A program made the translations under genes and the position numbers. A stretch of 64,000 bases of DNA from Mycolicibacterium palauense (GTDB lineage Bacteria; Actinomycetota; Actinomycetes; Mycobacteriales; Mycobacteriaceae), in the NCBI RefSeq assembly GCF_002592005.1, contig NZ_NVQF01000007.1, positions 47,173 to 111,172 on the forward strand. Direction: 5' to 3'. A model generated the notes under the pieces. It saw only the letters and a list, made by a program, of their open reading frames with translations. It was not told where the DNA came from and made no database searches. Numbering within the stretch: position 1 is the stretch's first letter; every line of letters begins with the position of its first letter. Positions 1-64,000 of this stretch are shown here, in pieces.

Positions 1-14
1 ACCACGGCCTTGTG

Positions 15-87: not shown

Positions 88-123
88 AGTTGAGCTTTAA
101 CCATCTGCTTTATTAGATTGCAG

Positions 124-471: not shown

Positions 472-670
472 CCGAAACGCAAATCAGGTACCAACCCGGC
501 TTAACCCAAAGCTCAAGGTTCTCGCCGTGAACATTTAACCCACTATCCTCGGCGACATACAGCAGGGCGTCAATCGACCGCTTAACAGCGTCGGGCGTCA
601 TAGCGCTATGACAGGCGTGATAAAAGAAATGCTTCTCAGGCACACTCGGCATGAAACAACTCCCCCGCAT
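398..670 (-). CDS. hypothetical protein, 90 aa
   Basis: An unrecognised small acidic protein with the run DDDD near its C-terminus. Residues 25-66 look like a helix followed by strands (KRSIDALLYVAEDSG, then WYLICVSVGYDD), as in a small soluble domain. Met at codon 7 is an alternative start. It lies directly downstream of tRNA-Met within the array, so it is probably co-transcribed with the tRNAs. The 74-base overlap with the next ORF lowers confidence. Confidence 0.5.
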   Translation of the reverse strand: MRGSCFMPSVPEKHFFYHACHSAMTPDAVKRSIDALLYVAEDSGLNVHGENLELWVKPGWYLICVSVGYDDDDHRSHRSQMEMDGWQRRA

Positions 671-699
671 ACTCGGCGACCATCTTCTTTGATTCCATC

Positions 700-773
700 T
701 GGTTGCGCAGCTGGGATTCGAACCCAGAGCCTCGGCTTATGAGACCGAGATGTTCCCCTTACACTACCGCGCA
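700..773 (-). tRNA. tRNA-Met (CAT)
   Basis: Acceptor TGCGCGG pairs with CTGCGCA. The anticodon stem TCGGT/GCCGA holds loop CTCATAA, anticodon CAT. The T-arm is CTGGG TTCGAAT CCCAG. Discriminator A is followed by CCA in the DNA, which makes this one of the few array members with an encoded CCA end. A CAT anticodon could also mark a tRNA-Ile whose C34 is modified to lysidine. Confidence 0.92.
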
Positions 774-829
774 ATATCCGGATTGGTTCGCCTCTCACCG
801 GCATCGAGGAGTGGTTTCCACTTCATACG

Positions 830-904
830 TCGGAACGCTTGGATTCGAACCAAGGGCCTCCCGGGTTTCAACCGGGCGCTCTCACCTCACTGAGCTACGA
901 TCCG
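830..904 (-). tRNA. tRNA-Phe (GAA)
   Basis: Acceptor CGGATCG/CGTTCCG has one U-U mismatch. The anticodon stem CCCGG/CCGGG encloses TTGAAAC, anticodon GAA. The T-arm is CTTGG TTCGAAT CCAAG. No CCA is encoded. Confidence 0.92.
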
Positions 905-1030
905 AGGAGTCCCACCCATTCATGCCAGCCCCTCTGGCAACCTGTATTCACTCTTAGTGGCCACCAGGCGGGTGGGGGTAAGCGGAGGGCTGTGGGCACG
1001 ATCCACACGGGTTGTCTACCGCGCACCCCT

Positions 1031-1115
1031 TAGCAGGGGGCCCCAGCTCCCTGGCTGGTTAGCTCTCCAAAGTTCCCGGTCGCTCTGCCAGTTGAGACGT
1101 ATACCCCTGACGCAC
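1031..1115 (-). other. degenerate tRNA-like sequence
   Basis: The minus strand has a D-arm-like stretch (CTCAACTGGCAGAG) and outer complementary ends CAGGGG/CCCCTG, but no TTCGA-type T-loop. The last hairpin is CCAGC CAGGGA GCTGG. I cannot assign an anticodon. It may be a decayed tRNA or chance pairing in GC-rich DNA. Confidence 0.25.
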
Positions 1116-1174
1116 CAACAGTCCTTCGCGCGAACTAGGTGTTGGCTCCCACCGTGCACGGCAGGCGACGAGGG

Positions 1175-1254
1175 CAGGTGGATTCGAACCACCAACCACC
1201 AGTTGCGAAGAGCGGAGGTCTTGATCCCCAAGCAGCATCACCTGCTACCCGGTA
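1175..1254 (-). tRNA. tRNA, irregular, isotype uncertain (possibly Arg TCG or Gly TCC)
   Basis: The T-arm GGTGG TTCGAAT CCACC is perfect, and the outer ends GGGTAG/CTGCCC pair. The D-arm is enlarged, with a loop of about 20 bases. Two anticodon arms are possible: CCGCT/ACTGG with loop CTTCGCA (anticodon TCG, one C-C mismatch), or AAGA/TCTT with loop CCTCCGC (anticodon TCC, but C instead of U33). The isotype is therefore unresolved. Confidence 0.5.
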
Positions 1255-1346
1255 TTCGACACCGGTCGGGGCACTCGCCCCTGCTTCACTCTCCAGATGC
1301 CGGTCGAGTTGCTTTTACCCTGCGCCTCCCCGGCTTGTGGCGCAGC
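1240..1346 (-). tRNA. irregular tRNA-like gene with GTCGAAT T-loop
   Basis: On the minus strand a T-arm CCGGT GTCGAAT ACCGG is followed by GTAGCA, which pairs with TGCTGC upstream. A stem-loop GGGGC GAGT GCCCC lies where a long variable arm would be, and a perfect 7-bp hairpin CTGCGCC/GGCGCAG lies at the 5' side. The T-loop has G at position 54. Its 3' part overlaps the next tRNA-like gene, so the borders are uncertain. Confidence 0.35.
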
Positions 1347-1351
1347 ATGTG

Positions 1352-1425
1352 TGGAGTCACCGAGGCTTGAACTCGGCTCTGCTGGACTGCGAATCCGGCG
1401 TTTTACCTTGTTAAACTACAACCCC
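1352..1425 (-). tRNA. tRNA-Ala (CGC)
   Basis: Acceptor GGGGTTG pairs with TGACTCC through several G-U pairs. The D-stem is GTTT/AAAC. The anticodon stem CCGGA/TCCAG (one mismatch) holds TTCGCAG, anticodon CGC. The T-arm CCGAG TTCAAGC CTCGG is perfect. The cloverleaf is complete. The Ala call rests on the anticodon only. Confidence 0.82.
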
Positions 1426-1652
1426 ATTGTGCGGTTTCGGGTGTCGCGATTCACCCTACCGAGAGGTCCGCTATCTCGGATCCGTGGTTGGATAACACAG
1501 CCAGCGGCATCGGACTGCGACCCCGTAAATTAACGTCACCAGGGATCAGGGCGGGTAGTTATCCGATCTACCAACGGCTAGTTCGGTCCGGCCCAGTTTT
1601 AACCCGCTCGGGCCGGGGGTGGGAAGCAGTTTGAATTGATGCTCAACAATCG

Positions 1653-1724
1653 CTGGAAACCCTGGATTCGAACCAAGAATGACGGGTTCAGATCCCGTAG
1701 TGTTGCCGGTTACACCAGTCTCCA
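1653..1724 (-). tRNA. tRNA-Gln (CTG)
   Basis: Acceptor TGGAGAC/GTTTCCA, D-stem GTGT/ACAC, anticodon stem ACGGG/CCCGT with loop ATCTGAA (anticodon CTG), and T-arm CTTGG TTCGAAT CCAGG. The fold is complete and CCA is not encoded. Confidence 0.92.
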
Positions 1725-2007
1725 ATGCTGGAAAGGCATTTCGGTCGGCCCACCTCTCCACTGGCCGGTGGGCAGTCGATTCGGGGTCGAGCCCCTCCCT
1801 CGTCTGTGTTCCCCACTAGGACTGGCCTTGCGAGCAGGGGCCCTCATGTTGGTGTCGCAAGCCACGAACGGGTGCCCCGTCAGTCCCAAGATTGGAGACG
1901 CTTAGTTCAGTAGGCCCAGCGTCACTGCCTACACGATCCCAGGCTGGGGACGGTCCTACTTTCCCTCACCGTGCCCACGGGTGGGAGTGGTACCTCTCGT
2001 GTGTTGT

Positions 2008-2082
2008 CTCGCCGTGAGGAGTCGAACCTCCACACCCGAAGGAAGGGCTTTACAGGCCCCGTTGCTCACCTATGCGCGACGA
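2008..2082 (-). tRNA. tRNA-Tyr (GTA)
   Basis: The anticodon stem GGGGC/GCCCT encloses CTGTAAA, anticodon GTA. It is followed by an extended variable region (TTCCTTCGGGTGT) as expected for bacterial tRNA-Tyr, then T-arm GAGG TTCGACT CCTC. Acceptor TCGTCGC/ACGGCGA has one mismatch. Confidence 0.85.
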
Positions 2083-2379
2083 GATTGGAGGTGCGGCCTA
2101 CAGACAAATACCGCACTACCACGCCATTTCACCGGATTATCGTTTCCCGGCTTGTCCCCCAGATCCCTCCAGGAGGCGCGTACGCCTGGTCCTTGTGAAC
2201 CACTGTTCATGTCGAAAGCTACTCTGCGGCGTTCCCTTCGCCGTTGGGATGGCCGTCCCATGGCTGCAGTACTGACCTACAAACAGGATCCGCCTTGCGG
2301 GCTCGTCCTGCCCCGATTCTGCTCCACAGTCGGGGATTAAGGCGCTTTAACTCTTCGACAGGGAAAGTCTTTTGCTTGG

Positions 2380-2452
2380 ATAACATCACAGGAATTGAAC
2401 CTGCGACCTTCTGTTCTCAATACAGATGCTCTACCAATTGAGCTAGATGTTG
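2380..2452 (-). tRNA. tRNA with TGA anticodon, short variable loop
   Basis: The D-arm TAGCTC...GAGC is canonical. The anticodon stem TCTGT/ACAGA holds ATTGAGA, giving anticodon TGA (codon UCA, Ser). The T-arm is GCAGG TTCAATT CCTGT. The acceptor is CAACATC/GATGTTA with an end mismatch. The variable region has only five bases (AGGTC), whereas bacterial tRNA-Ser has a long variable arm, so the charging identity is doubtful. With a 9-base loop, GAG (Leu) would be the alternative. Confidence 0.75.
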
Positions 2453-2855
2453 TGACCGGAGACGTGCTTCCCCATGAAGGTCCGTAACCTTTTGAGCTAC
2501 AGAATGCTTCACGCCTCTCGCGCTTCAGGCTGGCGACCTGTTTCGCGCTCTCCCTCAACCGCATGCGAGCCGTCGCCCGTCGCGAGATCGGTCATGGAAC
2601 CCGCCTTCGCCTGCCAGGGCTCTGACTCAGTTCCTTCCGCACCCACACCAGCCTTAGTCGATAACACTTTCGGGCCTACGTTAGGTCATGGTGTCCTCAG
2701 CACGTTGCCGTTGGACCATGTGTACCTCGGTGGCGCACCGCCCCTTCGAGGACGGTGTCGGGTTGTGGATTGCATGGATTGCCCTCACGGGTGGCGAGCT
2801 GTCACACTCACCTTTCAGTGCCTTACGGCACCTTATCGGCCATGCCCGAAATCTT

Positions 2856-2959
2856 GATGGGGCCTGGATTCTAACCAGGATCTCCAGGGAATGCCACGTC
2901 CGGACGTGGGGCCTGGGCTCTACCGGGGATCAAGCCGGCTGATCTTGAGCTACACCCTC
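2856..2959 (-). tRNA. tRNA-like gene with hairpin insertions in D and anticodon loops
   Basis: The T-arm CCTGG TTAGAAT CCAGG and the D-stem GCTC/GAGC are intact. The D-loop is 26 bases and contains a 17-base hairpin (GATCA, 7-base loop, TGATC). The anticodon arm CCAGG/CCTGG has a 23-base loop containing the perfect 16-base palindrome CCACGTCCGGACGTGG. Removing 16 bases would restore a 7-base loop. Acceptor GAGGGTG/CCCCATC pairs 5 of 7. The anticodon cannot be read with confidence. Intron-like insertion and decay are both possible. Confidence 0.5.
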
Positions 2960-2960
2960 G

Positions 2961-3033
2961 CTGGTCCGCCAGGATTCGAACCTGGAACTTCCTGGTTAAC
3001 AGCCAAGCGTGTTGCCGGTTACACCACGAACCA
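2961..3033 (-). tRNA. tRNA-Asn (GTT)
   Basis: Acceptor TGGTTCG/CGGACCA, D-stem GTGT/ACAC, anticodon stem CTTGG/CCAGG with loop CTGTTAA (anticodon GTT), T-arm CCAGG TTCGAAT CCTGG. A complete canonical fold, directly abutting the irregular gene at 2856-2959. Confidence 0.95.
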
Positions 3034-3189
3034 ATGATTGCCGCCAAACCAGGTGGGGGGAGCTTTTGACCGCACGATGGCGGGGTGGCTGTTATGTCAC
3101 CCGGTTTGGTAAGTCTTTCCCACCAGTGTGACGACAGGTGGGCGTGCCGGTCCTAAACGGACACACTCAGTTGACACTTTTTCATTGCG

Positions 3190-3261
3190 TCGGGAAGCAC
3201 AGACTCGAACTGCGTACGCCCGCATCCGAAGCGGCCATGTTTACCTTTACACCACATCCCG
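3190..3261 (-). tRNA. tRNA-Pro (CGG)
   Basis: Acceptor CGGGATG/CTTCCCG with one mismatch, D-stem GTGT/ACAT, anticodon stem GCCGC/GCGGG with loop TTCGGAT (anticodon CGG), T-arm CGCAG TTCGAGT CTGTG, discriminator A. Confidence 0.9.
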
Positions 3262-3335
3262 ATTGGAAGCATGGCGGATGGAGTGGGCTCTGTACCATCT
3301 CTTACCTATGGCCATTCCCGACCATGCTTCACGAG

Positions 3336-3773
3336 TGGAGCTGGCGGGAGTCGAACCCGCGTCTTACGTTCTTCGTACTCAGTCTTCTACGTGCGTAGTC
3401 CAGACAGGTGTAATCCCAGCCAGCTACTGGACATACGGCTGCGGATTTGCTTCGGATTTACCCCCGAGTGGGCTGCAATTTTAGCCTACGGGTGCGCGGG
3501 CGCTACGGTCTGCCAACCATTCCTGCGGTCCCCGTATTAGCGACGCTGGATTGGTAGACGGAACGGGTAAACCGCTCTACCCCAACGGACTTCAGCTAGG
3601 CTGCGACGAGAAACTCAGCCTCGATGTCCTCAACGGAGAAATCGAGCTCAGCTTCCCAGGCAGCGAAGTCAGCATCAGTATCGACTGCGCTTAATTTGTT
3701 TTGCACTGTTACGGGCGTTGCATCCCGGCACGCTTCCCTGGACTCTGTTCGCAATCGAAACCAGAACAGCCCC
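3336..3773 (-). ncRNA. ssrA: tmRNA (ssrA), one-piece, phage-encoded
   Basis: The minus strand starts GGGGCTGTTCTGGTTTCGAT and ends with T-arm CGGG TTCGACT CCCG and CAGCTCC-A, so GGGGCTG pairs with CAGCTCC as in a tRNA-Ala-like domain. Between them is an mRNA-like stretch. A resume codon GCA at 3688 opens a frame of 30 codons ending TAG at 3596. The tag starts AVDTDADFAAWE and ends EFLVAA, close to the ALAA/LVAA ClpXP degron. Several downstream pairings fit pseudoknots. It rescues stalled ribosomes and tags the nascent peptide. It is co-directional with the tRNAs. The host carries its own ssrA elsewhere by inference. Confidence 0.93.
3596..3688 (-). other. tmRNA tag-peptide reading frame
   Basis: This is the 30-codon proteolysis-tag frame plus stop inside the tmRNA. 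It is acid-rich (Asp/Glu), contains Trp, and ends Leu-Val-Ala-Ala. Usual tags are about 8-35 residues, and to my recollection the mycobacterial one is near 12. The resume codon is inferred. Any in-frame codon further on would shorten the tag but keep the same C-terminus. Confidence 0.75.
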
Positions 3774-3818
3774 ATGAAACTTACTTGATATCCACTATTT
3801 AGTTCTCAAAGTACTGAG

Positions 3819-3889
3819 CAGGGTCGGAGGGATTCGAACCCCCATAAGCGGCTTTGGAGACCACGGTCCTGCCGTTGGACGACAACCCT
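3819..3889 (-). tRNA. tRNA-Trp (CCA)
   Basis: Acceptor AGGGTTG/CGACCCT, D-stem GTCC/GGAC, anticodon stem GTGGT/GCCGC with loop CTCCAAA (anticodon CCA), T-loop TTCGAAT. Discriminator G, as is usual for Trp. Confidence 0.94.
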
Positions 3890-21599: not shown

Positions 21600-22001
21600 G
21601 TGAGCAAAATTGTGACCACCGAGAGAAAGCCAGCAGTCGCGGCCGTGCCCGCTACCAAGACGCTGATCCTGGAGGAGGGACGCATCACCTTCACCGAGTC
21701 GGAAGACGGTCGGAGGTGGGACGGCGTGGTAGGCACGCCAGTGACCTTCCACACCGAGGATGCGTTGAACCTGTTCCTCGCGGCTCTCGCCAAGATCGCT
21801 GACACGTCGTCCCCAAAGATCGTCAGAAACAGCGAGGAGCTGGCCGAACAGCCGGAGGGGATTCGCTGGAAGTCCAGCTACAACGGTGGGACGTACACCG
21901 TCAAAGACGGTGCAGTCCGTTACGCACCGACGTGGGAAGCTAGCGCGTCGGCACCGGTTAAGTGCGTGACGCCGAAGGCATTCCCGCTGGTGCGTGCCTG
22001 A
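21600..22001 (+). CDS. hypothetical protein, 133 aa
   Basis: Unrecognised beta-rich protein. GTG 21600 lies immediately downstream of a predicted promoter with no ribosome site, consistent with leaderless translation. Segments TLILEEGRITFTESEDGRRW and GGTYTVKDGAVRYAPTWE look like repeated strands. First gene of the rightward operon. Confidence 0.72.
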   Translation: MSKIVTTERKPAVAAVPATKTLILEEGRITFTESEDGRRWDGVVGTPVTFHTEDALNLFLAALAKIADTSSPKIVRNSEELAEQPEGIRWKSSYNGGTYTVKDGAVRYAPTWEASASAPVKCVTPKAFPLVRA

Positions 22002-22804
22002 TGGGAAAGCACAACACGCAGTGGCATGCCGAAATCGCCAAAAGCAACATCATCCTCCTCACCGAAGTTGGATCCGGACTACACGGAGTCACCATCTCCG
22101 GGACCGATGACCACGACGAGATGGGTGTGTGCATCACCCCACCAGAGTGCGTCATCGGCACGCAGAAGTTCGAGCAGTACCAGGACCGCTGGCACCTCGA
22201 TGGTCTGCGCATCGCCGAGGGACAGAGATCCGGCCCGGGTGACACAGACCACGTCACCTACTCCCTGCAGAAGTACGCGCGACTGGCCGCGGACGGCAAC
22301 CCGACCGTACTGATGCCTCTCTTCGCGCCGCGGGAGAAGACCTACGTCGAGACCGAACTCGGCGCAGAGTTGCGGGCGAATCGCGACCTGTTCCTCAGCA
22401 AGCAAGCCGGCGCGCGATTCCTCGGATACCTTGTCGCACAGCGTGAACGGGCACAGGGCCTCCGCGGCAAGAAGCACACCAACCGCCGCGAGCTGGTCGA
22501 GAAGTTCGGCTACGACACCAAAATGATGTACCACGCCATCCGGCTGGCCATCCAGGGAACACAACTGATGGACATCGGAGTGGTGGTTCTTCCGATGATG
22601 AAGACTCACCGAGAGCTCCTACTGCGCGTCCGCGAAGGTGCCTTCTCACTGGAGCATGCACTCGACATCCTCGCGGCCCTCACGGACGACCTACGCGAGG
22701 CCATCGCGTACAGCACGCTACCGGACAAGCCCAACACCGATGAGCTCGATGACTTCCTCATCGGCATGCACAACCGTCACTGGACATCGAAAGGAATGCT
22801 ATGA
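22001..22804 (+). CDS. RNA-repair-type nucleotidyltransferase (RlaP/YcgL-like)
   Basis: 267 aa from ATG 22001 (TGATG with the previous stop). GSGLHG at 24-29 followed by DDHDEMGV at 36-43 is the active-site signature of the predicted nucleotidyltransferases associated with RNA ligases. HVTYSLQKYARLAADGNP and the late helices FLGYLVAQRER and GYDTKMMYHAIRL also fit. It probably transfers nucleotides to RNA ends in repair of cleaved tRNAs. That would suit a phage with its own tRNA set. Confidence 0.8.
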   Translation: MGKHNTQWHAEIAKSNIILLTEVGSGLHGVTISGTDDHDEMGVCITPPECVIGTQKFEQYQDRWHLDGLRIAEGQRSGPGDTDHVTYSLQKYARLAADGNPTVLMPLFAPREKTYVETELGAELRANRDLFLSKQAGARFLGYLVAQRERAQGLRGKKHTNRRELVEKFGYDTKMMYHAIRLAIQGTQLMDIGVVVLPMMKTHRELLLRVREGAFSLEHALDILAALTDDLREAIAYSTLPDKPNTDELDDFLIGMHNRHWTSKGML

Positions 22805-29251: not shown

Positions 29252-31222
29252 TCACCCTGTGTCGATGTCGTACTGTTCCAACACCCACTTCCAGAACCAG
29301 TTTTCGGTTGGTGTCACCACGACAGGGACATCATCAGCTGGCCGGCGAGGAGTTCCTTGGTATGCCTCCTCGACCTTCTCCTTCATCTGTGAGGCCGCGT
29401 TCGGGCTCACCCACCACTGCCCCTTCAGGTAAGGCAAGTCCTCCTGAGTGAGCACATATGTGGTGTTCTCGAAGTTCCACGCAATGTGGCTAGGGTCGAA
29501 CAGGTCAGGCTCGTCGTAAGCCGTGTGATATTCCGACTTTCCCTTGTCAGCGTTCTTCATCGCCAACACGTTCGTGTGATCGGCAGGGGAGTCCGCCCAA
29601 CCGTCGTACCGTCGCGCAAAGTCGATGACGTGCCAACGCGTATTCGTCAGGGTCGCTTCACCGATGGTTTCGCCGACCTCTACAGTCCCGATGCCACCGC
29701 CACCGCCAGTGGAGCGCAACGGATTACCGGTGAGGATAAACATCAGCTCATCCGCAGGCGGTGCAGTGTCGTCATCCCAGTGCAGTGCCAGCCAATGCGA
29801 CACAACCTGCGCGCCCTGGGACTGAGCTAGGACGATCTTCTTCCCAGGCGTGCTCCGCACTGCGGCATCGAGCATTGCGACACCGTCAGAGATTGAGGTG
29901 CTCTTCAACGATGCGGGGTACTTGATCTGCACCATGTTGTACGGCGCGGATGCAAACCTGCCCTGGAACTTCTCAGGCATGTCGTTGTACAGGTTGAAGC
30001 ACAGACCCGAAAGCGTGAAGACAGTCCCGGACTCGAACACCTGGAATGCCCGGCCAGCCATCATGTGCAGGTGCGACAAGTCAGCTGCCATCGCACCCGC
30101 CAGGCTGATAGCCGACCCAGCGAGGATAGAGTCGACACCACGGACAGACGCCACGATGCCGCCATAGAATGGCTGCGCCCCGTAGCCAACAATCAGCGGA
30201 TTAGCGAGCGTTGCGCCCATGCTTCCGGTCTCCACCTCGACACCCGACATGCCGGCAGTAGGCGTAGCTAGAAGAGCTGCCAATGCGGAATCAGCCGGGA
30301 TGTTCTCCCCGACGAGCCCCGCGGCAGGTGCCTGCAGGTCAGCGGAGATCGCTGCGTCGAGTTCGTGCTCACCAGTGAGCGACGCCGTCACTGCGCTCAA
30401 CTGGGAGGCCACAGAGCCTCGCTGCGACTGTCCGCCCGTCATGACCGACTTGAGGATCCCCAATGCAGCGCCGAGCGTTCCTGGGTAGCTCTGCGCCGCG
30501 GGAAGGCTGGCCAGTACGGGACGCAGGGATGCCGACATCGCCCCCTGGGGGGTCAGCGGATACATCTCGAAGGCCGCGCCGGCATAGTCTGCACCACTGA
30601 CGCGGCTCGCGGTGAACGTCACCGACGACGCTCCAGGTGCATAGCCGACGACGCCCTGACAGTACTGACCAACGTCCATGTACGTGATCAGCGTCTGGTT
30701 GTAGTCAGACACCGCGGTCGAGAACAACGGCTCCATGTGGCCGGCGTGATGGATCATCCGCTCAGCCGCCGATGACATAGTCAACGAGAACGTCGAACCG
30801 GACTCAGTTCCCGCCGCGATCGTGTGGCCGCCAACACTGTCAACGCCGCGATACAGGGTCGCCTCAGCGTTGATGCGGAACACTGCAGAGGTGCTCTCCA
30901 GAGTCCACTCGATATACACCGGGTGGGTGCCGCCTACTGGATTCGCCAACACGAAATGCTGAATGTGTCCAGTGCTCGACAAACCGGTGTCGTTGTCACC
31001 CCACGCCATCGGGAATGGCGTCATCTCGGTGCCATTCCACTGCACCGTGTAGTCGATCGTGCCAGTGTTACTGGTGGAGTAGCCGATGATGGTTACGACC
31101 AGAAGGTCGTAAGGCATGGTCGTGCCAGCGGCGAAGTCTGACGTAGTGTTGTACGCGCTGCCGCTGAACTCTAGGTAGTCGCCCCCGGTGAGGCTGGCGG
31201 AACCAACATGGGAGATAGGCAT
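29252..31222 (-). CDS. minor tail protein with C-terminal PE-PPE/cutinase-like serine hydrolase
   Basis: 656 aa. N-terminal 210 residues are beta-rich; about 215-385 are Ala/Gly/Ser-rich linker. From about 400 an alpha/beta hydrolase follows: IVLAQSQGAQVVSHWL (G/A-x-S-x-G nucleophile, Ser near 467), FILTGNPLR, then DGWADSPADHTNVLA (Asp and His candidates). This resembles PE-PPE/cutinase esterases and is distinct from LysB. As a tail protein it could cleave mycolate esters during entry. Confidence 0.75.
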   Translation of the reverse strand: MPISHVGSASLTGGDYLEFSGSAYNTTSDFAAGTTMPYDLLVVTIIGYSTSNTGTIDYTVQWNGTEMTPFPMAWGDNDTGLSSTGHIQHFVLANPVGGTHPVYIEWTLESTSAVFRINAEATLYRGVDSVGGHTIAAGTESGSTFSLTMSSAAERMIHHAGHMEPLFSTAVSDYNQTLITYMDVGQYCQGVVGYAPGASSVTFTASRVSGADYAGAAFEMYPLTPQGAMSASLRPVLASLPAAQSYPGTLGAALGILKSVMTGGQSQRGSVASQLSAVTASLTGEHELDAAISADLQAPAAGLVGENIPADSALAALLATPTAGMSGVEVETGSMGATLANPLIVGYGAQPFYGGIVASVRGVDSILAGSAISLAGAMAADLSHLHMMAGRAFQVFESGTVFTLSGLCFNLYNDMPEKFQGRFASAPYNMVQIKYPASLKSTSISDGVAMLDAAVRSTPGKKIVLAQSQGAQVVSHWLALHWDDDTAPPADELMFILTGNPLRSTGGGGGIGTVEVGETIGEATLTNTRWHVIDFARRYDGWADSPADHTNVLAMKNADKGKSEYHTAYDEPDLFDPSHIAWNFENTTYVLTQEDLPYLKGQWWVSPNAASQMKEKVEEAYQGTPRRPADDVPVVVTPTENWFWKWVLEQYDIDTG

Positions 31223-37492: not shown

Positions 37493-39172
37493 CTAGTTAA
37501 TGTCGACCGCGTACGCGTTGAGCTGGTCGAACTCGGCGTAGGACTGCCACGAGTAGAGGCCGAAGATTTGCTCGTTATGCGACGTGGTGAAGCTGCCAAC
37601 GGGATGCCAGTCAGTAGCCCCGTCAAAGCGGAAGAACGCGGTACGCTTGGACCCCTCGACACGCATCGCCAACCACACCCACGTGTCAGTGAGGTCTGTT
37701 CCGTCACCGATGTTCATCACGAACGGCTGGTCGAAACCGTCGAAAGCCTTGACCTGCCAGTTGTTTACAGATGCCCTCACGAGTGAGACATGAGTAGCGC
37801 CGCCGAAGTATCCGTCCGTTCCCGACCCGGAAACCATCAACCCAGCAGATAGGTCGTTGAACTCTCCGCGGATCCGCATCTTCGTCTCAACCCAGTAGTT
37901 CTCGGGAAGGAAGACATACTTGCGCGCAATACGCATATCCTGACCAGGCTCAGTTGCAGCAGTTGGGAACGAGATGGTCGTCCCCGTGCACACCGCCTGG
38001 GTCCTGTCGGGTGGCTGGGTCCACAAGTCGGTGGGGACAGTGCCGATCGGATAGTCAAGGTTGTCCTCAAGCAGGACCACATTGCGCATGGTCTGCGGGA
38101 CGGGTGCTCGGTCAGGCTTGTCGTCCAACCACATGCCGGCCGACGCGGACACCTTCAGCGTCGCTGGCGTCATGGTGCCCTGGTTGTACTGACCGATCGG
38201 CATCACAACCTTGACGTGACTGTTGAACCGAATTGGGTCAGCCGTGAAGAACCGGTACATCGTCTGGTGCGTGCCCGCGGTGATATCAGTGTCCGGGGCG
38301 CGGCCAGCTGGATATCCACCCTCAGGCATGGCATACCAACCGCCAGTGAAGAAATCCTCGGTGCCTGAAGCCATTACAGCGGCGATGAGCTCGCCGTCAA
38401 CGAAGATCTGCACGTTCCCCTCAAGGAACGTCGCCTCAAAATCCTGCGCAGACGACACCGACAGGTAGAGGTGCTCAAGCTGGCCCGACCCATCAATATC
38501 AACGACAGTCAGCTTGCCGCGCGCCGGGAACGCATCATTCTTGACGCTGGCAACCTTGTACGTCTGGAACGCCCGCGGAGCATTGTCGTAGCGGAACTTG
38601 ACATGCCCGTACACCGCGCCAAGGTCTGAGCTTGTCTTGTTGATCATCTCAACGCGCATGTAGCGGCTGAACGGAGCGAACAAGTTTCGGTACGCCGAAG
38701 CCTGGCCAGAGTCGAATCCACGCTTCGTGCGTCCAACGCTCGGGGTGGAGAACTCACCACCGCGCGGCCCGTACATGAAGAAGTCGTTGATGGACAAGTC
38801 GATGGCCGGCACAGTGTTGTTATCCAGGTAGACGCGGATTCGTCCGCCGTCCTCAACGAACGAATCGCGCGTCATGTCACCGCCGTTCGCGGCGAACCAC
38901 ACCTGCTCAAGTACGCCAGAACCGTGTGCCTCACCGAGGATCAGAGGCTTCTCACCAGCTGGGGCGGTAGCGTCAGCACGCGCAACACCAAGCTCCTGCG
39001 CCGTCAGGACAGTTCGTCCATGCGCAACGGCGAACCCCGGTGGAGTGACGCCAGCAGACCCGGATTCGAGATATCCAAACCTGGCCTCATGCTTGTTGAC
39101 CTGCTTGGCGATATCGTTCACAGCGTCAGCTGGGAGGTACTCGCCATCAATCCAGTCGATCTTGAGAGTCAT
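37493..39172 (-). CDS. minor tail protein with DUF2961/GH172-like domain
   Basis: 559 aa. After a 75-residue trimeric-looking N-terminus come DUF2961 signatures: SGVLEQVWFA near 95, RVYLDNNTVPAIDLSINDFF near 130, and ASGTEDFFTGGWYAMPEGGY near 265-290, then MYRFFTADPIRFN. GH172 (former DUF2961) enzymes include exo-alpha-D-arabinofuranosidases that trim mycobacterial arabinan. The last 190 residues are a beta-jelly-roll-like module. In a tail this suggests arabinogalactan digestion at adsorption. Confidence 0.75.
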   Translation of the reverse strand: MTLKIDWIDGEYLPADAVNDIAKQVNKHEARFGYLESGSAGVTPPGFAVAHGRTVLTAQELGVARADATAPAGEKPLILGEAHGSGVLEQVWFAANGGDMTRDSFVEDGGRIRVYLDNNTVPAIDLSINDFFMYGPRGGEFSTPSVGRTKRGFDSGQASAYRNLFAPFSRYMRVEMINKTSSDLGAVYGHVKFRYDNAPRAFQTYKVASVKNDAFPARGKLTVVDIDGSGQLEHLYLSVSSAQDFEATFLEGNVQIFVDGELIAAVMASGTEDFFTGGWYAMPEGGYPAGRAPDTDITAGTHQTMYRFFTADPIRFNSHVKVVMPIGQYNQGTMTPATLKVSASAGMWLDDKPDRAPVPQTMRNVVLLEDNLDYPIGTVPTDLWTQPPDRTQAVCTGTTISFPTAATEPGQDMRIARKYVFLPENYWVETKMRIRGEFNDLSAGLMVSGSGTDGYFGGATHVSLVRASVNNWQVKAFDGFDQPFVMNIGDGTDLTDTWVWLAMRVEGSKRTAFFRFDGATDWHPVGSFTTSHNEQIFGLYSWQSYAEFDQLNAYAVDIN

Positions 39173-39181
39173 TCTTTGTCC

Positions 39182-42100
39182 TTAAACGCCGTACTTGCCG
39201 ATGTAAGGCATCGCTTCCTGCGCAGCGGTTGTGCGCTGCTGACGCTTGAACTCGTCAAGGTTCGTCAGCTGATAGACGTTGTCGCCGTTGTGAACACGGC
39301 CCTGAACCATCGAAGGAACGCCCGAGGTATCTGGCTGGGCCGGCAGTAGGGGAGTGCCAGATGCACTTGCAGTTGATCCGTTCGTCGCAGTTCCCACGAG
39401 CAGCGACGACAAGACGTTCGTCAAGCCAGTTGCGATCTGGCCGCCGATCTGGAATCCGGCCTGAATGCCAGCCCCGGCGAGCTGCCCACCAGCGCCACCA
39501 GCGAGTCCGCCTGCGCCGGCAGTCGCGCCCATCGAGGCTCCAGACGCGGCCATCGATGCAGCGGTAGCCACGAGAGACCCGACATGGTTCCACGCACCCT
39601 GAATGCCTGAACTCAACGCAGGGAGGTTGTGCTCCTGCGATGAAGGTGCAGCACCAAGGCTTGCCCGAGGGTCAGCCGACTGCGACGCATCAGCGCCAGG
39701 CTGTGCCGAACCAACGCCGCCGGTTCCCGAGAGCAGCCCAGCCAGGCCACCGACGTTCGTCAGTGCGTCCTGCACGCCAGGGAGAGCACCAGGGTCTGGA
39801 GCGGGAGCAGTCGCCCCAGGCCCCGGTGCACCTCCGGTCGAAGGGGTGGTGCCAGCACCAGCCCCAAGTGTGAGAGGCCCGGGAGTAGCGGGCTGCGGAA
39901 CGCCTGGCTGCTGGCCTGGCTCAGGTGGAGCGGGAGGCTGCGGCGTCTGCGGGAGCGGACCTGGAGTCTGCCCCGGGTAAGGCTGCGGCATCCACCAGCC
40001 GCCACCCTCGAACTGGCCGGCGTTCACCAGATGCATGAAGTCCAGGCCGTACTTCTTCACGGCGTAGTCGCGCATCATGAACTCGCCCTTGGACCCCATC
40101 AGTGGGACAGAGTCCGAGCGCCCAGTGCCAGGCCCGGTGATCAGTCCACCGCCGGCCTTACCTGGAATAGGTAGCCCAAGCTGTGGCGGATTCCACTGCG
40201 CGAAGACCCGGGCACCCCTACCCTCTGGTCGCACATCGAAAGGCGTGTAGCTGCCACCGCGTGGAAGTAGGAGCTCATTCTCTGCTCGCCCGAAGTGCGA
40301 GAGAGACTCGCGTCCAGCACGTCCAGACAGCCACAACCCGTGGGAGCCGCGCGGTACAAGCAGCTGCATTACATACGGCGAAGGACGCCCACCAGCGCCG
40401 ACACTGGTTGATGTGTATCCGGGATCGGAGAATGTGCGGCCGAGCAACCTGGTCAGGTCGTCATTGGGGTGGATGTTCCCGAAGCCGGCTGCGTCGAGCT
40501 CGCGGTTGACAACGAAGTCGTCCGGTACGCGGTTTGCCTTCCCGAACGCGCTGTCAATCCCGGCTACCTGCCGCAGATGCTCTGATAGCGCGTCACTGCC
40601 GACCAGGTGACCCTTGCCGCTGGCAAGCGCTCGGAGCGTGCCGTTGACACCAGACCCCTTTGTGTACCCGTAGATGGCGTCGAGCTCGGCCGGAGTGAAC
40701 GGGTTGTCCGACTTGCTGTACGGCCAGATATCGTTCGCGTACGCCCGCGCCCTGCCGAGATCCATCGCATCCGGGGCGGTGTGCGCGTGCGCAGGGGTGG
40801 CACCCTTCAGGAATCCGCGACGTGCAGCACTGCTCGCCACCGAGCCTGCACGTGTTCCCTTCAGTGCCGCGCCACCAGGAACGAACGCCGACGCGATGTC
40901 AAACGCGGACATACCGGCCGCGCGAGCAGGGTTACGACCCCACTCATCCCAGTGGACGGTGTTCTTACCGAACTGCCTCCACGCATCCCCAACAGATGGG
41001 GAACCGCCTCCACCGAGCCCAACAAGTGGTGCTAGACCGCGTGCAGCGCCACCGACCGCCATGGCTGGGTTGCCGACAGCCTGGTAGATCCCCTTACCTG
41101 CATCCCAAGCCGAGGACCCGACGCCGCCGAGGAAGTCTCCGACCTTTCCGAAGAACCCTCCACCCGAGAAGCGTGGTAGCCGGCGAGCGTTCAGATCATC
41201 GAACAGCTGCTTGCCGTAGTAGCGGGTGGCATCCCTATTGGTGACGAACTCACCACGCGACAGCCACGCCAAACCACTATTCGGATGACCACCGCTCTTG
41301 AACCCGTGCCCCTGGCCGATCTGGTTTGGAACGCCAGTGTTCGGGTCCTGCCCGTACTGCGACTTCGTGTAGGCAATCGCCGCGACGATCTGAGACCACG
41401 GGTCATTGATCGATCCGCCGACAGCGTTGTAGGAGTCAAACGTCGATGGCAGGAAGTTGAACAGACCCATGACCTGCTGGGTTCCGCCCTGTCCGTCGGA
41501 GTCATTCCCGTTGAACGAGAACGGATCACCGCCAGACTCAGTATCGATCTGCTTGACGAGAGCGTTCTCCCACGCGGCAGCGTTGGTGATTCCAAGCTGA
41601 GGCCCGTACATCTGCAGCGCCTGACGGATCATGGCGCGATAAGCGTTTCCGCCCTTCTTGCCAGGTGAAGCGAGACCACCGCCCTGCTGAAGAAGGTTGT
41701 CGTTGAATGCGATCGGCTGGATAGGAAGACCAGTCGAAGGGTCAACCTCGATAGGCAGCTGCCCGTTGCCGTACAGGAACTGGTTCAGGTACTGCCCTGA
41801 TCCACCGTCACCAACGACATTGCCGAGTCCGCCGATGCCCTGCTGGAGCAGCTGCGAGAAGACATCCCCACCGCCGCCACCTGAGGAACCGCCAAGGTTC
41901 AGCCACCCTGACGCTGCCTGGCCGGCGCCATTGCCCACCTGTCGGGTGAGATCAGCAAGCCAATTGAAGTTGATCCCAGTGAGGTCGGTGAGCAGCTGCG
42001 TGCCGATCCCGAGCAGGCTGGAACCGATATTCCCAGCCTGGCCAACCAGGAACTGGGCGATGTTCGAAGGCTGCATAAAGTCGGGCAGCCCAGCGATATT

Positions 42101-45100
42101 CCCGAAGAGGCCGCCGCTGGAATCTCCAGTCAGCATGTCAGCAGTGACGCCGCCAGGTAGTCCACCCGGGTACTGCTGCATCAAACCTGGCAGCATGTAC
42201 TGCTCGGCCCCGGTTGGGTAACCACCTCCAGTGGTCTTCACGTGAATGTGATCGCGATGACCCTGCGTATCGCCAGAACGGCCCAACGCATGGCCGTCCC
42301 CACCCACTGGCTGCCAGAAGTCCTGCCAGATGGTGGAATCCACGCCCATGGCAGCACCGTTGGCCTGAAGCCACTGGTTGATCTGATCTCCGAGCGCCTT
42401 ACCCTCTGGGGTGTTGTAGTTCGGGATCATGATGTCGATGGCCTTGCCAGACGGGTGATCCTCGATGGCGTCCTCGCGGTAGCCGCCGATGTTCGCGATC
42501 TGTGGGAACATCGCTTCGACCGCGCGCTTCACGCCGATCGTGTTGACCTGCAGGTTGCCCTCACCGCCCAGGCGTGACTGCAGCGGCACGCCTGCCATCT
42601 GACCGCCGACGCTGGCCAGTGGGTTCATCAACCCGGCCACGGGGATCCCGTTGATCTGCGGCATGCCGGCAGCTGCGACCACGCCGGGGATTACCGGGGT
42701 GATGCCGGCGTTATTGACGCCCGGGTATCCGCCAGTTAGGTGCGTGCTCGACACGGTCGACGCAGGGGGTGCCGAAACAGGCCCTGGCTGCCCCTGAGGA
42801 GCTCCAGAACTGTTTGCTGGGGTGGTTGGCTTAGGGGACTGAACTGGAGGCGCAGGAGTGGCCTCAGGGGCCTTCGGTGAAACTCCCGGAGTCAACCCAA
42901 GGAAGTCCTTCGCATATGCGTCGAAGAACCCACGAGGACGTGAACCTGGAGCACCACTCTGGCCGAGGTCATACCCATGCTGGGCATCCAAAGCGCTACG
43001 CGACAACTTCGTGTTCGCGTACGGTGGCTTCTCCCAGTTAGGAGTGATATCAACCGGCCCAGCCTTAGTGGCAAGGTTGTCCTCATACCAGTGCCAGCCC
43101 TGCTTGATTGAGTCAATGGCAGCACGGCCGAAAGTCACGCGCTCATCCATGCGCGTAGAGCTGTTGGCAACACCCGCCTTGTTCTTAGGCTGAGGGCGAT
43201 CCAAAATCGACGGAGTGACAGGACCGAACCATCCACCCGAGTCGAAGCGCGGAAGCTCCATACCATTCAGGCGGTTAAAGAAGTCGACGCCGTAGTACTT
43301 CACCGCGGCTGCATTGGTCACATGCTCACCGCGCGACAGCATCGCCAGGTTCGCATCATCGCGAGGGCCGCCGACGCCACCAACAAGGCCACCATCGGCG
43401 AACTTGTCAATGTACTTCTCGGTACCGTCAACAGTGAGGTTCGTGCGGAAACGTCCATCACCGTTCGGTGCGACAGTCCCATCCTCGGCCGGCACAGCAG
43501 GCTTGCGGTCAGTGATGACGACCGCATTGCCGGCATCATCGATATGAACCTCAGAAACACCAGAGCCGGCGAACACGCCAACACCTGGCTTCACCGACCC
43601 GAGGCCGTTGGCAAGTGTGTTCACCTGCTGGGCCTGCGCGGCACCAGCGCTCAAGCTGTTCGGGATGTCGCGCAACGCAGATAGCGACGCAAAGAGATCG
43701 CCCTGGCCGGTCGACTTCACCACGCCCTGAAGGTCATCCGGGAGGTTTCCAGTCGCACGCTTTCCAGCGATAACCCCCTGCTTAGCTACTTCAGGTAGCC
43801 AGGACGGAATGTTTTGGTCAACGAGCATCGCTGAGTACGCAGCGCGAACCTTGTCGAGTGCCTTCTGGTCCGTACTGGCTGCAAGTGCTAGATCACGAGC
43901 ACTGACGCCGTACTTCTCCCAGATATCACCCGACTTCTTCCAAGAATCCGAGTTCTGGACGGCCTTCGTTGCCATGTCGTTGCCGCGCTGAAGAACGCTC
44001 TGACGCTCGGCGTCGTTGATCGGCAGGAGGGCCCGACCGAACTGGTTAGGGCCAGCGAGCCCAGAACGGGCAGCCGCATCAATCGTGTTGACCTGGCCCT
44101 GGCCCTGGAACGTGAACGTCTGGGCAGCCTGCAACGCGGCAGCCTTGTCAGCCGAACCCGTAGTCTGATCTACGGTCGTCTGCAGCTGCTTCAGAGCCTC
44201 GTTATGGGCATCGGCATCCTGCGCAGCCTTACGGTGAGCATCACCGAGAGCGCTGATACCCAAGGTCAGTGCGGAGATTGCAGCCGAGAAAGCAAGACCT
44301 GGGCCGATGAACAACCCGAGCCCCTTCAGGGCGCCGAGAAGCGATCCACGCCCAGCGCTACCGATCTTCCCGGCAGCGACGACGGCTGCCCCGCCGGCAT
44401 TCTCGAACTGCTTCGTCAGATCCTTCGTTGACGACAACGCTGGGAAGGCAGCCTTGTCGACATTCTTCACAGCCTCGGCCGACAACTTGATCGGCTTAGC
44501 GGCACCAGCTGCAACCCCGCCCAGCGACTGCAAATTCGCCTTGAACTCGTTCAGCCCACGGTTCATCGGACCGAAGAAGTTCGAGGTGCGGTGATACTGG
44601 GCCAGACCGCCCATCACCTTGCCGTAGTTCTGCCACGCAGTGGTCAAACCCTCAACGATCGGGCGAGCAGTACGCCACGACAGATAAGCGATCAGCAGGT
44701 TCTTCGCCAGGCCAGTGTTCTTCTCGACCCATCCGGCGATCTTCGAGAACGTTCCCAGCACCGAGAAGAGGACAGTGGACCATTCGCGTGCGGTCTCAAC
44801 CATGTCCCCGATGAACGGACGCATATCCTTGACGGCGGACAGAATCTGACCGACAAGATCGCGTGCACGTGAGAAGTAGTTAGTCAACCCCTGCTGGGTC
44901 GAAGGCTCCTTCAGGAAGTCAGCCAGCCTCGACGTAGCGCGCTCGATGGTGGTGATGAAACCGCCCTCGAACCCGGTGGTCTGCGCGAATGCACGCGACA
45001 CCGAGGAGATGATCGAAGCGATGTTCAACAGCGTGTTGCCAAGCGCAGTAAGCGAATCAAGACCAGAGTCGATCCACTCATTCAGCGTCCCGTCATCGGA

Positions 45101-46426
45101 AACTCGCTGAGTGAATGCATCGAACCTGTCGAGCACGCGCGTGAATGCGTCGGCGATGCGCGGAAGGAACTGCGCTGAATCGGAAGTCAGGCGCAGAACG
45201 CCGTCGATCAACGGCTGGAAGGCAGCGGAGAAACGCTGCAAAGCAGTGCCATTGGCACCAAAAATGCGGTCCAGGAACGACTGATTCTGATCAGTCCCCA
45301 AAGACGCGGCCAGAGCCTTCAGATTGGCATTCAGGCCGGAAGCAGTACGACTCAACCCACGATCAAGCGTGGGCAGCGCCTTGTTACCAAGATTCGTGAT
45401 CGTACGATCCAAATCCTGGAACAGGTTGTTCTGAGAGTTGCCAGACAGGCGATTCCATGCGCCCTTGAAGTCCAGAAGCGCGCGCACAGCAGACTGTGCA
45501 TTCGGAGCAAGCTTCTCCATGGCCTTGTCGAGCTCGGAGATGTTGCCCTTCTCGACAGTGTCGAGGGCGTCAGAGATGCGATCGAGCGCATCAACTACAG
45601 AGTCGGCGTTCTGCACGCCCTTCTGGTTTGCGTCGAAAGTATCCTCGGCAACGCGCTTCGCGCGGACCTGCACATCCTGCAGATGGTCAACAGCCTGCAG
45701 GTAGCTCAACTGATCACGGCGAAGTTCCAGCAGCGAACGCTGTCCGCCCTCGCGCAGGCGCTGAGCAGCCTCCTGCACGCCCAGAACCGCGTCAGCGACA
45801 TTCAGCGACGAGCGACGGTTCTCGCGGTTAAGATCCTGGATCTCGCGGATCGTGTCGCGGACGGCCGAACGGTAATCACGGTACGAGCGCTCAAGGTCGC
45901 GATTCGCCCGCTGCTGGTCACGAGCGTTCTGCTCTGCATTCTTCGAATCAGTCGCGTACGCCTGGAATGCGGCCCCGAGACCGCGCATACCAACCGCAAG
46001 GGCACCCACCGATGCGGCAGCACCACCCAACAATCCGGGCAGCGCAAAAGCGCTCTTCCCCAACGCATCCAACGCAGACGTTGCGGAACCAGCCGCATAC
46101 GCGAGCGCTGGAAGCGCATCAAGTCCGATTACCTTGACATTGAGGCGAAGAGCCCGAGAAAGCGAATTACGCTTGAAAATGTGCTCAACCGTGGACAGAT
46201 CACGGCGAAACTGCTGAAAGTCAGCACGAACGGGAACGGTGACAGGATCGAGCTCCTGCCGGCGGCGCCACGCGGCTACCTCAGCGGAAGCCCCCGCCAT
46301 GTTGGCTTCAAAGTCGATCTCGACAGGATCGAAGCGCATGGCAGCGAGCTTCGTATCAGCCTCTACCTTGAATCGCTTCAGGGTAGGGATGATTCGAATG
46401 GCGGCTTCACCAGCCAACACAGCCAT
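39182..46426 (-). CDS. tape measure protein with peptidase, lysozyme-like and ADP-ribosyltransferase-like domains
   Basis: 2414 aa, which by the usual 0.15 nm per residue predicts a tail near 360 nm. Coiled coils at about 150-310, hydrophobic helices near 700. About 1270-1400: an M15/DD-peptidase-like domain (DHPSGKAIDIMIPN ... GHRDHIHVK). About 1590-1700: an SLT lysozyme-like domain (KQIDTESGGDPFS, MGLFNFLPSTFDSY). About 1890-2070: VVNRELDA, YTSTS and AENELLLPRG, the R / STS / ExE pattern of arginine-type ADP-ribosyltransferases. Three copies of an LSRGEHVTNAAAVKYYG-type motif separate the modules. Pro/Gly-rich C-terminus. Confidence 0.92.
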   Translation of the reverse strand: MAVLAGEAAIRIIPTLKRFKVEADTKLAAMRFDPVEIDFEANMAGASAEVAAWRRRQELDPVTVPVRADFQQFRRDLSTVEHIFKRNSLSRALRLNVKVIGLDALPALAYAAGSATSALDALGKSAFALPGLLGGAAASVGALAVGMRGLGAAFQAYATDSKNAEQNARDQQRANRDLERSYRDYRSAVRDTIREIQDLNRENRRSSLNVADAVLGVQEAAQRLREGGQRSLLELRRDQLSYLQAVDHLQDVQVRAKRVAEDTFDANQKGVQNADSVVDALDRISDALDTVEKGNISELDKAMEKLAPNAQSAVRALLDFKGAWNRLSGNSQNNLFQDLDRTITNLGNKALPTLDRGLSRTASGLNANLKALAASLGTDQNQSFLDRIFGANGTALQRFSAAFQPLIDGVLRLTSDSAQFLPRIADAFTRVLDRFDAFTQRVSDDGTLNEWIDSGLDSLTALGNTLLNIASIISSVSRAFAQTTGFEGGFITTIERATSRLADFLKEPSTQQGLTNYFSRARDLVGQILSAVKDMRPFIGDMVETAREWSTVLFSVLGTFSKIAGWVEKNTGLAKNLLIAYLSWRTARPIVEGLTTAWQNYGKVMGGLAQYHRTSNFFGPMNRGLNEFKANLQSLGGVAAGAAKPIKLSAEAVKNVDKAAFPALSSTKDLTKQFENAGGAAVVAAGKIGSAGRGSLLGALKGLGLFIGPGLAFSAAISALTLGISALGDAHRKAAQDADAHNEALKQLQTTVDQTTGSADKAAALQAAQTFTFQGQGQVNTIDAAARSGLAGPNQFGRALLPINDAERQSVLQRGNDMATKAVQNSDSWKKSGDIWEKYGVSARDLALAASTDQKALDKVRAAYSAMLVDQNIPSWLPEVAKQGVIAGKRATGNLPDDLQGVVKSTGQGDLFASLSALRDIPNSLSAGAAQAQQVNTLANGLGSVKPGVGVFAGSGVSEVHIDDAGNAVVITDRKPAVPAEDGTVAPNGDGRFRTNLTVDGTEKYIDKFADGGLVGGVGGPRDDANLAMLSRGEHVTNAAAVKYYGVDFFNRLNGMELPRFDSGGWFGPVTPSILDRPQPKNKAGVANSSTRMDERVTFGRAAIDSIKQGWHWYEDNLATKAGPVDITPNWEKPPYANTKLSRSALDAQHGYDLGQSGAPGSRPRGFFDAYAKDFLGLTPGVSPKAPEATPAPPVQSPKPTTPANSSGAPQGQPGPVSAPPASTVSSTHLTGGYPGVNNAGITPVIPGVVAAAGMPQINGIPVAGLMNPLASVGGQMAGVPLQSRLGGEGNLQVNTIGVKRAVEAMFPQIANIGGYREDAIEDHPSGKAIDIMIPNYNTPEGKALGDQINQWLQANGAAMGVDSTIWQDFWQPVGGDGHALGRSGDTQGHRDHIHVKTTGGGYPTGAEQYMLPGLMQQYPGGLPGGVTADMLTGDSSGGLFGNIAGLPDFMQPSNIAQFLVGQAGNIGSSLLGIGTQLLTDLTGINFNWLADLTRQVGNGAGQAASGWLNLGGSSGGGGGDVFSQLLQQGIGGLGNVVGDGGSGQYLNQFLYGNGQLPIEVDPSTGLPIQPIAFNDNLLQQGGGLASPGKKGGNAYRAMIRQALQMYGPQLGITNAAAWENALVKQIDTESGGDPFSFNGNDSDGQGGTQQVMGLFNFLPSTFDSYNAVGGSINDPWSQIVAAIAYTKSQYGQDPNTGVPNQIGQGHGFKSGGHPNSGLAWLSRGEFVTNRDATRYYGKQLFDDLNARRLPRFSGGGFFGKVGDFLGGVGSSAWDAGKGIYQAVGNPAMAVGGAARGLAPLVGLGGGGSPSVGDAWRQFGKNTVHWDEWGRNPARAAGMSAFDIASAFVPGGAALKGTRAGSVASSAARRGFLKGATPAHAHTAPDAMDLGRARAYANDIWPYSKSDNPFTPAELDAIYGYTKGSGVNGTLRALASGKGHLVGSDALSEHLRQVAGIDSAFGKANRVPDDFVVNRELDAAGFGNIHPNDDLTRLLGRTFSDPGYTSTSVGAGGRPSPYVMQLLVPRGSHGLWLSGRAGRESLSHFGRAENELLLPRGGSYTPFDVRPEGRGARVFAQWNPPQLGLPIPGKAGGGLITGPGTGRSDSVPLMGSKGEFMMRDYAVKKYGLDFMHLVNAGQFEGGGWWMPQPYPGQTPGPLPQTPQPPAPPEPGQQPGVPQPATPGPLTLGAGAGTTPSTGGAPGPGATAPAPDPGALPGVQDALTNVGGLAGLLSGTGGVGSAQPGADASQSADPRASLGAAPSSQEHNLPALSSGIQGAWNHVGSLVATAASMAASGASMGATAGAGGLAGGAGGQLAGAGIQAGFQIGGQIATGLTNVLSSLLVGTATNGSTASASGTPLLPAQPDTSGVPSMVQGRVHNGDNVYQLTNLDEFKRQQRTTAAQEAMPYIGKYGV

Positions 46427-46917
46427 TACGTCCCCTTAGCAGATTGCAAACGGCGGTTCTGACGGCGCATCTCACGCTCTGCCTTTGCGACATTGCGTGC
46501 CTGCGCGCGTTCGACCGCGCTGAGCGTGCGCTTACGTGAGCGCTGCTTCCGCAACTCCAGCCCAGGAATGACAGGACGCGGCAAGGACTTACCGACCTTC
46601 ACCTCGATGAGGGTCTTCAGAAGCGAAATCTCCTCGGTGTGACCGAAGATTCGCGGCCTTGACGGACCATCGTCATCCCGCGTGCGAGACCCCATCCATT
46701 CAATAGTTTCTGGGTCGCAGAGGACGGCTTCGTTGGTCATGGTGCCCGGCATATTCATCAGGACACCGAAGAATCCGAGTAGCTCCTCGACGGGGCGCTT
46801 GCGCCTCCAGGACGTGGGGCCAGCAGGAACCCACTGGAAGTACTCGTAAGCAGAGAAACTCAGAAGATGCTGGAAGTCCCAGCAGATCGCTGACCAGTAT
46901 CGGTCAACGACCTGCAT
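46426..46917 (-). CDS. tail assembly chaperone, frameshift (GT) part
   Basis: 163 aa. It begins ATG 46917 overlapping the end of the upstream chaperone gene. The Arg-rich C-terminus (RKQRSRKRTLSAVERAQARN) resembles the T-part of lambda gpGT. A -1 slip at the AAAA of CTAAAAGG (46922-46928 on the plus strand as CCTTTTAG) joins DLK to RLMQVVDRYW without a stop, giving a fused protein of about 257 aa. Confidence 0.82.
   Translation of the reverse strand: MQVVDRYWSAICWDFQHLLSFSAYEYFQWVPAGPTSWRRKRPVEELLGFFGVLMNMPGTMTNEAVLCDPETIEWMGSRTRDDDGPSRPRIFGHTEEISLLKTLIEVKVGKSLPRPVIPGLELRKQRSRKRTLSAVERAQARNVAKAEREMRRQNRRLQSAKGT

Positions 46918-62568: not shown

Positions 62569-64000
<1,432 letters not shown>

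Follow-up and report, generated by a model that had tools for sequence, protein, structure and literature searches.

In actinophages, MuF-VIP2/ART fusions carry on a virion protein an ADP-ribosyltransferase (ART) of the same superfamily as the one described here (Microbacterium phages Percival, Goodman and Cicada; PMC7302621, PMC5576092). The MuF-VIP2 fusions were described as unusual (PMC7302621), and MuF toxins include ARTs (PMC5576092), in agreement with the original prediction for this locus, which took ART domains to be known in MuF head proteins. Similar annotations occur in Gordonia and Arthrobacter phages. The carrier in the MuF fusions is a head-associated protein, whereas the carrier at our locus is the tape measure protein (TMP) of the tail, in which no MuF domain scored above the Pfam cut-off and no head family of PHROGs matched at E values up to 0.01. 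The T4 Alt protein and the Alt/VIP2 family are also virion-borne R-S-E ARTs thought to act on entry (PMC9503650, PMC5512222). Alt, however, is packed in the head as a protein of its own, whereas the ART reported here lies inside the TMP reading frame. Free-standing VIP2-like ARTs of the same family are found in mycobacteriophages and Gordonia phages (First gp2, Turbido gp3, Nedarya gp2) and were the best-scoring phage records among the tblastn matches listed. They differ in being genes of their own, located at the left genome end, with about 25–36% identity over the aligned parts. We take the mycobacteriophages that carry them to be those of cluster A.

Two further systems resemble the locus in their carrier. 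The Streptomyces contractile injection systems Tme and Sle1 use a TMP-like carrier with a variable C-terminal effector (PMC11126660, PMC13277306), but they are bacterial contractile injection systems and not infectious phages, with a C-terminal nuclease in Tme and varied domains in the Sle1 group. The term “ADP-ribosyl” has no occurrence in the available texts of these two articles, and DUF4157, the core domain of Tme, gave no match in our TMP at E values up to 1. The TM4-type peptidoglycan hydrolase motifs are likewise an enzyme module embedded in a TMP and helping entry (PMC1796659). The target of these modules is the cell wall; an ART, by contrast, needs NAD+ and would work inside the cell. 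“Tape measure” does not occur in the available main text of the NAD/ADP-ribose survey of 21,191 viral proteomes (PMC9503650) or in that of the polyvalent-protein paper (PMC5512222). Searches of the open-access PMC literature brought up no description of a phage TMP with an ART in it among the listings and passages covered; the original prediction likewise knew of none. The locus joins an enzyme family and a carrier class that are both known, and we found this pairing described nowhere for phages.

The stretch of DNA analyzed (the window; 64,000 nucleotides) corresponds to positions 47173–111172 of contig C178 in a 6.23-Mb genome of Mycolicibacterium palauense. Phage lysis, tail and head genes, recognized with PHROG profiles, occupy the minus strand from about 25 to 56 kb of the window. 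A 24-kb stretch matched 40 phage records at the DNA level with 60–80% identity; all 40 are Mycobacterium phages, and the six records that were opened all belong to the Mclasvirinae. The TMP neighbors covered by the profile scans, which took in part of the window's ORFs, are phage head, tail and lysis genes. We read the block as an integrated, mycobacteriophage-like prophage. An IMG/VR contig of 78,671 bases carries an ART copy identical over the 206-residue query and is apparently from the same isolate as the window phage. A full-length adenylosuccinate synthetase gene (62614–63912), which also matches the phage family PHROG 1211, is probably host sequence. The window also holds ten tRNA genes and an RlaP RNA-repair nucleotidyltransferase, at 14–3889 (minus strand) and 21962–22804 (plus strand).

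The reading frame that carries the ART had been called a TMP, and this identification holds: it has a strong match to a TMP profile, it is a very large tail gene, and the ORF of a tail assembly chaperone lies directly upstream (Table 1), as is usual for siphophage TMPs. Related proteins are annotated as TMPs in Mclasvirinae phages, and the order of chaperone and TMP is the same in Nanosmite, MrMagoo, Bongo, Reindeer and Rey. By homology, the protein would be a virion component that sets tail length. Both of its hydrophobic segments precede the enzyme-like modules. The module at residues 1287–1413 possibly cleaves peptidoglycan, as we presume from its resemblance. PF26571 was listed for this TMP and for P0008, one of three further ART-bearing TMPs described below, and gave no match in direct Pfam searches of the TMP; the only Pfam match above cut-off in the window protein was PF03496, in the ART. 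Two other ORFs of this region, both on the minus strand, deserve mention. A 656-residue ORF in the tail gene block (29252–31222) matches PE-PPE (PF08237) over residues 435–600 with 70.6 bits and may encode a tail-borne esterase of envelope lipids. The ORF directly after the TMP (37493–39172) matches DUF2961 with 111 bits and has no PHROG match at E 1e-3.

Table 1. Features of the TMP gene and its upstream neighbor, with positions in the window.
Feature	Residues	Position	Strand	Evidence or remark
Tail assembly chaperone		46426..46917	-	PHROG 2624, E 3.8e-38; adjoins TMP upstream
TMP, 2,414 aa		39182..46426	-	PHROG 3547, 1,482 bits, residues 3-1715
Hydrophobic segment	127-145	45992..46048	-	mean hydropathy 1.75 over 19 residues
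Hydrophobic segment	706-724	44255..44311	-	mean hydropathy 1.72 over 19 residues
TMP repeat copy 1	~1006-1075	43202..43411	-	alignment of three copies
Module	1287-1413	42188..42568	-	40% identical to P0008 module
Transglycosylase-like (SLT) stretch	1618-1693	41348..41575	-	PF01464 20.0 bits, below cut-off 21.3
TMP repeat copy 2	~1705-1765	41132..41314	-	alignment of three copies
Insert carrying ART	~1759-2111	40094..41152	-	one clean gap in 6/6 related TMPs
Linker from repeat copy 2 to ART	1759-1889	40760..41152	-	no Pfam match above cut-off
ART domain	~1890-2083	40178..40759	-	PF03496, PHROG 3895, AF2 model, Foldseek/VIA
VVNRELDA; R1975 = R of R-S-E triad	1972-1979	40502..40504 (R1975)	-	
YTSTS (STS motif, S2006)	2004-2008	40403..40417	-	
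ExE site E2049-N-E2051, within AENELLLPRG (2048-2057)	2049-2051	40274..40282	-	
TMP repeat copy 3	~2086-2150	39977..40171	-	alignment of three copies; far side of ART; PHROGs 23013 and 10030 match

The original prediction placed an ART-like domain inside this TMP at 40180..40760, and the searches recovered it within two bases of those limits. PF03496 matched residues 1906–2061 with 52.6 bits against a curated cut-off of 23.4 (E 4.6e-14), and PHROG 3895 matched the domain with E 1.9e-20. All three predicted motifs are present, in order and at suitable spacing. The ExE site is a sign of arginine specificity. The pattern R...Y[TM]ST...ExE appeared in none of 2,000 shuffles of the whole TMP under wide spacing limits of our own setting (20–45 and 30–60 residues). 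When 17 ARTs were aligned, the column of R1975 held R in 14 and in all four TMP-borne ARTs, that of S2006 held S in all 17, and those of E2049 and E2051 held E in 16 and 17, respectively. An AlphaFold (AF2) model of the ART from 17 sequences reached a pLDDT of 86.3 (a model from two sequences, pLDDT 44.9, was left out of the analysis), and with Foldseek and VIA it matched solved ART structures, with a Listeria ART at the top; the ART fold that had been foreseen was thus also the predicted one. The 17 sequences had been picked as ARTs. The assignment thus enters into the model, whereas the Pfam and PHROG profile matches are independent of it. In profile score, ordered catalytic motifs and predicted fold, residues 1890–2083 match the R-S-E ADP-ribosyltransferase family (PF03496 / VIP2-Alt type). 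The GC content of the ART, 0.637 against 0.617 (SD 0.029) in windows of the gene, resembles that of the rest of the gene, and there is therefore no sign of a very recent import.

Comparison with six related TMPs (Nanosmite, MrMagoo, Bongo, Reindeer, Rey and prophiGD54-2) showed that the stretches flanking the ART align with all six. The BLAST segments stop at residue 1758 in every relative and resume at 2112, except in Nanosmite, where they resume at 2092. Five of the six have several hundred extra residues elsewhere, between window residues ~605 and 724. The insert sits between repeat copies 2 and 3. Since the Nanosmite TMP aligns to the repeats at two places (1266–1356 and 1838–1903), the added piece would consist of the ART module and one repeat. 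The linker showed no detectable likeness to the linkers of the other ART-bearing TMPs. The P0008 ART stands between two repeat copies (at 1596 and 2123), as does that of P0009, whose copies are wider apart (1210 and 2684); no repeat motif of this kind was found in P0002. In appearance, the repeats border a cargo slot in which one enzyme module can be exchanged for another.

Other long TMPs, proposed in the original prediction as the place to look, yielded three further cases. In a search base of 5.8 billion proteins, with length limited to 0.55–1.75 times the whole query protein, the window ART retrieved one other protein, P0002, and the P0002 ART retrieved two more, P0008 and P0009. P0002 (TMP_3, 66.9 bits; PHROG 16277, 924 bits) and P0009 (TMP_3, 47.8 bits) are TMPs by profile, and so is P0008, through matches to several PHROGs of TMPs; its PhageMin_Tail score stays under the cut-off (23.3 vs 33.2). 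The PF03496 scores of P0002, P0008 and P0009 are 69.1, 69.4 and 59.0 bits. The ART lies in the C-terminal half of all four TMPs, at residues 1906–2061 of 2,414 in the window protein and at 1604–1750 of 2,273, 1900–2057 of 2,324 and 1999–2162 of 3,419 in the other three. An ART-sized candidate search of the same protein collection gave four distant proteins. There is practically no chance that an assembly error or a chance match has taken the place of a real fusion: the window ART is known from one genome and one IMG/VR contig, apparently of the same isolate, but the open frame is uninterrupted, the profile scores are far above cut-off, and the three further proteins already contradict such an artifact.

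By BLASTP, the four TMP ARTs are 33–39% identical to each other, and little else is common to their TMPs. The window TMP and P0008 share the module at 1287–1413, P0002 and P0008 share a transglycosylase stretch, P0008 and P0009 have a weak linker match, and P0002 and P0009, both with TMP_3, have a weak backbone match (20.8%, E 3e-4). The backbones of P0002 and P0009 share a TMP domain. The window TMP and P0009 both match the middle of the TMP family PHROG 7025 by profile, and they look like very distant kin. In P0009, residues 1661–1922 and 2236–2470 are mutually similar stretches flanking the ART, with R-G-T and S-F-T motifs. From these motifs, seen by eye, the two stretches may be further divergent ARTs, but they had no Pfam match at E values up to 10. 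The expected conservation of the motifs was borne out in these more distant TMPs, in which alone it was judged, as the six nearest carry no ART domain: R, S-T and ExE are kept in all four TMP-borne domains. TMPs tolerate added modules, as would suit a domain that is catalytically dead or a mere space filler in the tail; the catalytic residues, however, have been kept despite the low identity, and we consider this explanation very improbable.

The phylogenetic sample comprised 47 chosen ARTs (4 from TMPs, 9 phage, 30 bacterial and 4 unknown), the bacterial ones taken from 20 of 30 loci of the genus, 9 of 10 other actinobacterial loci and one Nocardiopsis. The four TMP ARTs, which had been found by mutual similarity under a length filter, formed one clade with support of 97/94, present in 98% of 200 bootstrap trees. 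The Cicada ART, the one MuF ART in the tree, fell outside this group. The clade and the repeats could reflect a dedicated ART lineage moved as a repeat-bordered cassette between very different TMPs, in which case the tail, and not the head alone, would inject a host-modifying enzyme ahead of the DNA, and TMPs would be a delivery system for intracellular effectors. We give this reading slightly less than an even chance; it is rated lower because some of the backbones look distantly related. An old single ART–TMP fusion followed by many losses is a possible history beside cassette transfer, since the backbones are not proven unrelated, as the sharing of PHROG 7025 and TMP_3 indicates.

Relatives of the TMP numbered 39, the window's included, in 32 of the 396 genomes of the host's genus. 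Two ART profiles gave no match above threshold in the other 38 TMP stretches, at least six of which run to a contig end and may lack the C-terminus, or in six phage loci; the window ART and three control ARTs scored above threshold with both profiles. Two of the three controls are in profile A5 or are close kin of its members, whereas for profile A6, a four-sequence ART alignment, none is a member or close kin. When A6 was run over 396 genomes of the phylum, it recovered the window and, with lower scores, gave four other matches, located in ORFs of 256–534 residues. Multi-genome PF03496 searches missed the window's own ART, which a single-genome search found; the absence of the domain therefore rests on the direct HMM search of TMP DNA. 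By the multi-genome search, PF03496 occurs in 60 of the 396 genomes of the genus, many of the ORFs having 600–1,000 residues, and these may be secreted toxins.

Among the tblastn matches listed for TMP ARTs against 50,697 phage records, obtained with no limit on protein length (the best 60 of 80, 60 of 106, 2 of 2, 60 of 120 and 60 of 128), no feature is named “tape measure”; these matches are stand-alone, MuF or head-protein ARTs, hypothetical proteins and unannotated records. Scans of IMG/VR and GTDB contigs, an insensitive kind of search, returned from IMG/VR mostly the window's own phage or nothing, and from GTDB nothing or repeat-rich giant ORFs of two Nocardiopsis. One IMG/VR scan revealed a stand-alone ART ORF (L083) directly after a MuF-like ORF, and another, with a free-standing phage ART, gave eight close kin of that ART. 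A search of plasmids gave no match. Fourteen long ART-bearing actinobacterial ORFs, viewed in short stretches, were judged by eye not to be TMP-like. Viral structure models matched long ART proteins of the phages Sixama (1,285 aa) and Onyinye (1,340 aa); the Sixama protein was ruled out as a TMP, as its gene lies between the portal and capsid genes. The TMP–ART fusion is rare.

We think it rather likely that the ART is ejected with the TMP at infection and that, once inside the newly infected cell, it would mono-ADP-ribosylate a host protein on arginines. Published data on TMPs bear on this. In the mycobacteriophage Douge, the C-terminus of the TMP is a trimer in the baseplate lumen, the tail channel is about 35 Å wide, and on ejection a channel-like structure, proposed to be the TMP, reaches the inner membrane (PMC13033339). 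The hydrophobic TMP regions of TP901-1 are essential, and its C-terminus takes part in the initiator complex (PMC5099701); in TM4, infection can be aided by an enzyme module within the TMP (PMC1796659). Injection of phage ARTs is thought to serve host hijacking, and about 44% of these ARTs lie in contexts suggesting head packing (PMC9503650). Early ejection of the ART is likely because of these data on Douge, TP901-1 and TM4, together with the placement of the hydrophobic segments before the enzyme-like modules.

In the tail, the C-terminal end of the packed TMP would lie at the tip, in line with the published Douge data, and this end would exit first. The putative cell-wall-cleaving modules would assist in breaching the envelope. 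The ART module would move on from there into the cytoplasm, the site of NAD+; the ART must travel beyond the cell-wall modules, since NAD+ is inside and their action is outside the membrane. It would then act at once, ahead of phage gene expression, as T4 Alt does from the head. The purpose would be host takeover, with RNA polymerase as the first candidate target and a defense protein as the second. A tail-carried, Alt-like effector is plausible in that it is consistent with published TMP ejection. Several points count against delivery at infection: no translocation signal was found in the window TMP; a folded ART would hardly fit the Douge tail channel, which holds the TMP trimer; the fusion occurs rarely, and close relatives manage without the ART; and P0002, P0008 and P0009 come from contigs with no assigned host.

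The ART might instead work in the producing cell, where TMP synthesis takes place late in the lytic cycle, modifying host or virion proteins before lysis and remaining only a passenger in the virion. NAD+ is available in the cytoplasm of that cell and no membrane would have to be crossed. However, a free-standing gene would suffice for this, as in the cluster A phages, and the location of the ART in the C-terminal half of four TMPs points to delivery; we regard action in the producing cell as unlikely. Action against competitors, in which the ART harms adsorbed non-productive cells or rival lysogens as proposed for MuF toxins, would accord with the ARTs among the MuF toxins of temperate phages (PMC5576092) and with the top structural match, the Listeria ART, which has an ARH immunity partner. 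In the source genome, however, a contig other than that of the TMP, C145, holds the only match to ADP-ribosylglycohydrolase (PF03747), and the macro domain (PF01661) has none; no immunity gene was seen among the ten window proteins scanned with Pfam, though one of a different type may be present. We consider this role distinctly unlikely. A second PF03496 protein is also encoded on contig C145, about 52 kb from the ADP-ribosylglycohydrolase match.

Research on phage entry has yet to settle how far the TMP gets into the cell. If the ART is delivered at infection, an ART-bearing TMP would be a built-in reporter of this step, as early ADP-ribosylated host proteins would show that the C-terminal part of the TMP enters. 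Delivery from the TMP would also mean that host-modifying ARTs travel in the virion not only in heads, where they are known, but also in siphophage tails, and it would connect the TMPs of phages with the TMP-like effectors that contractile injection systems use.
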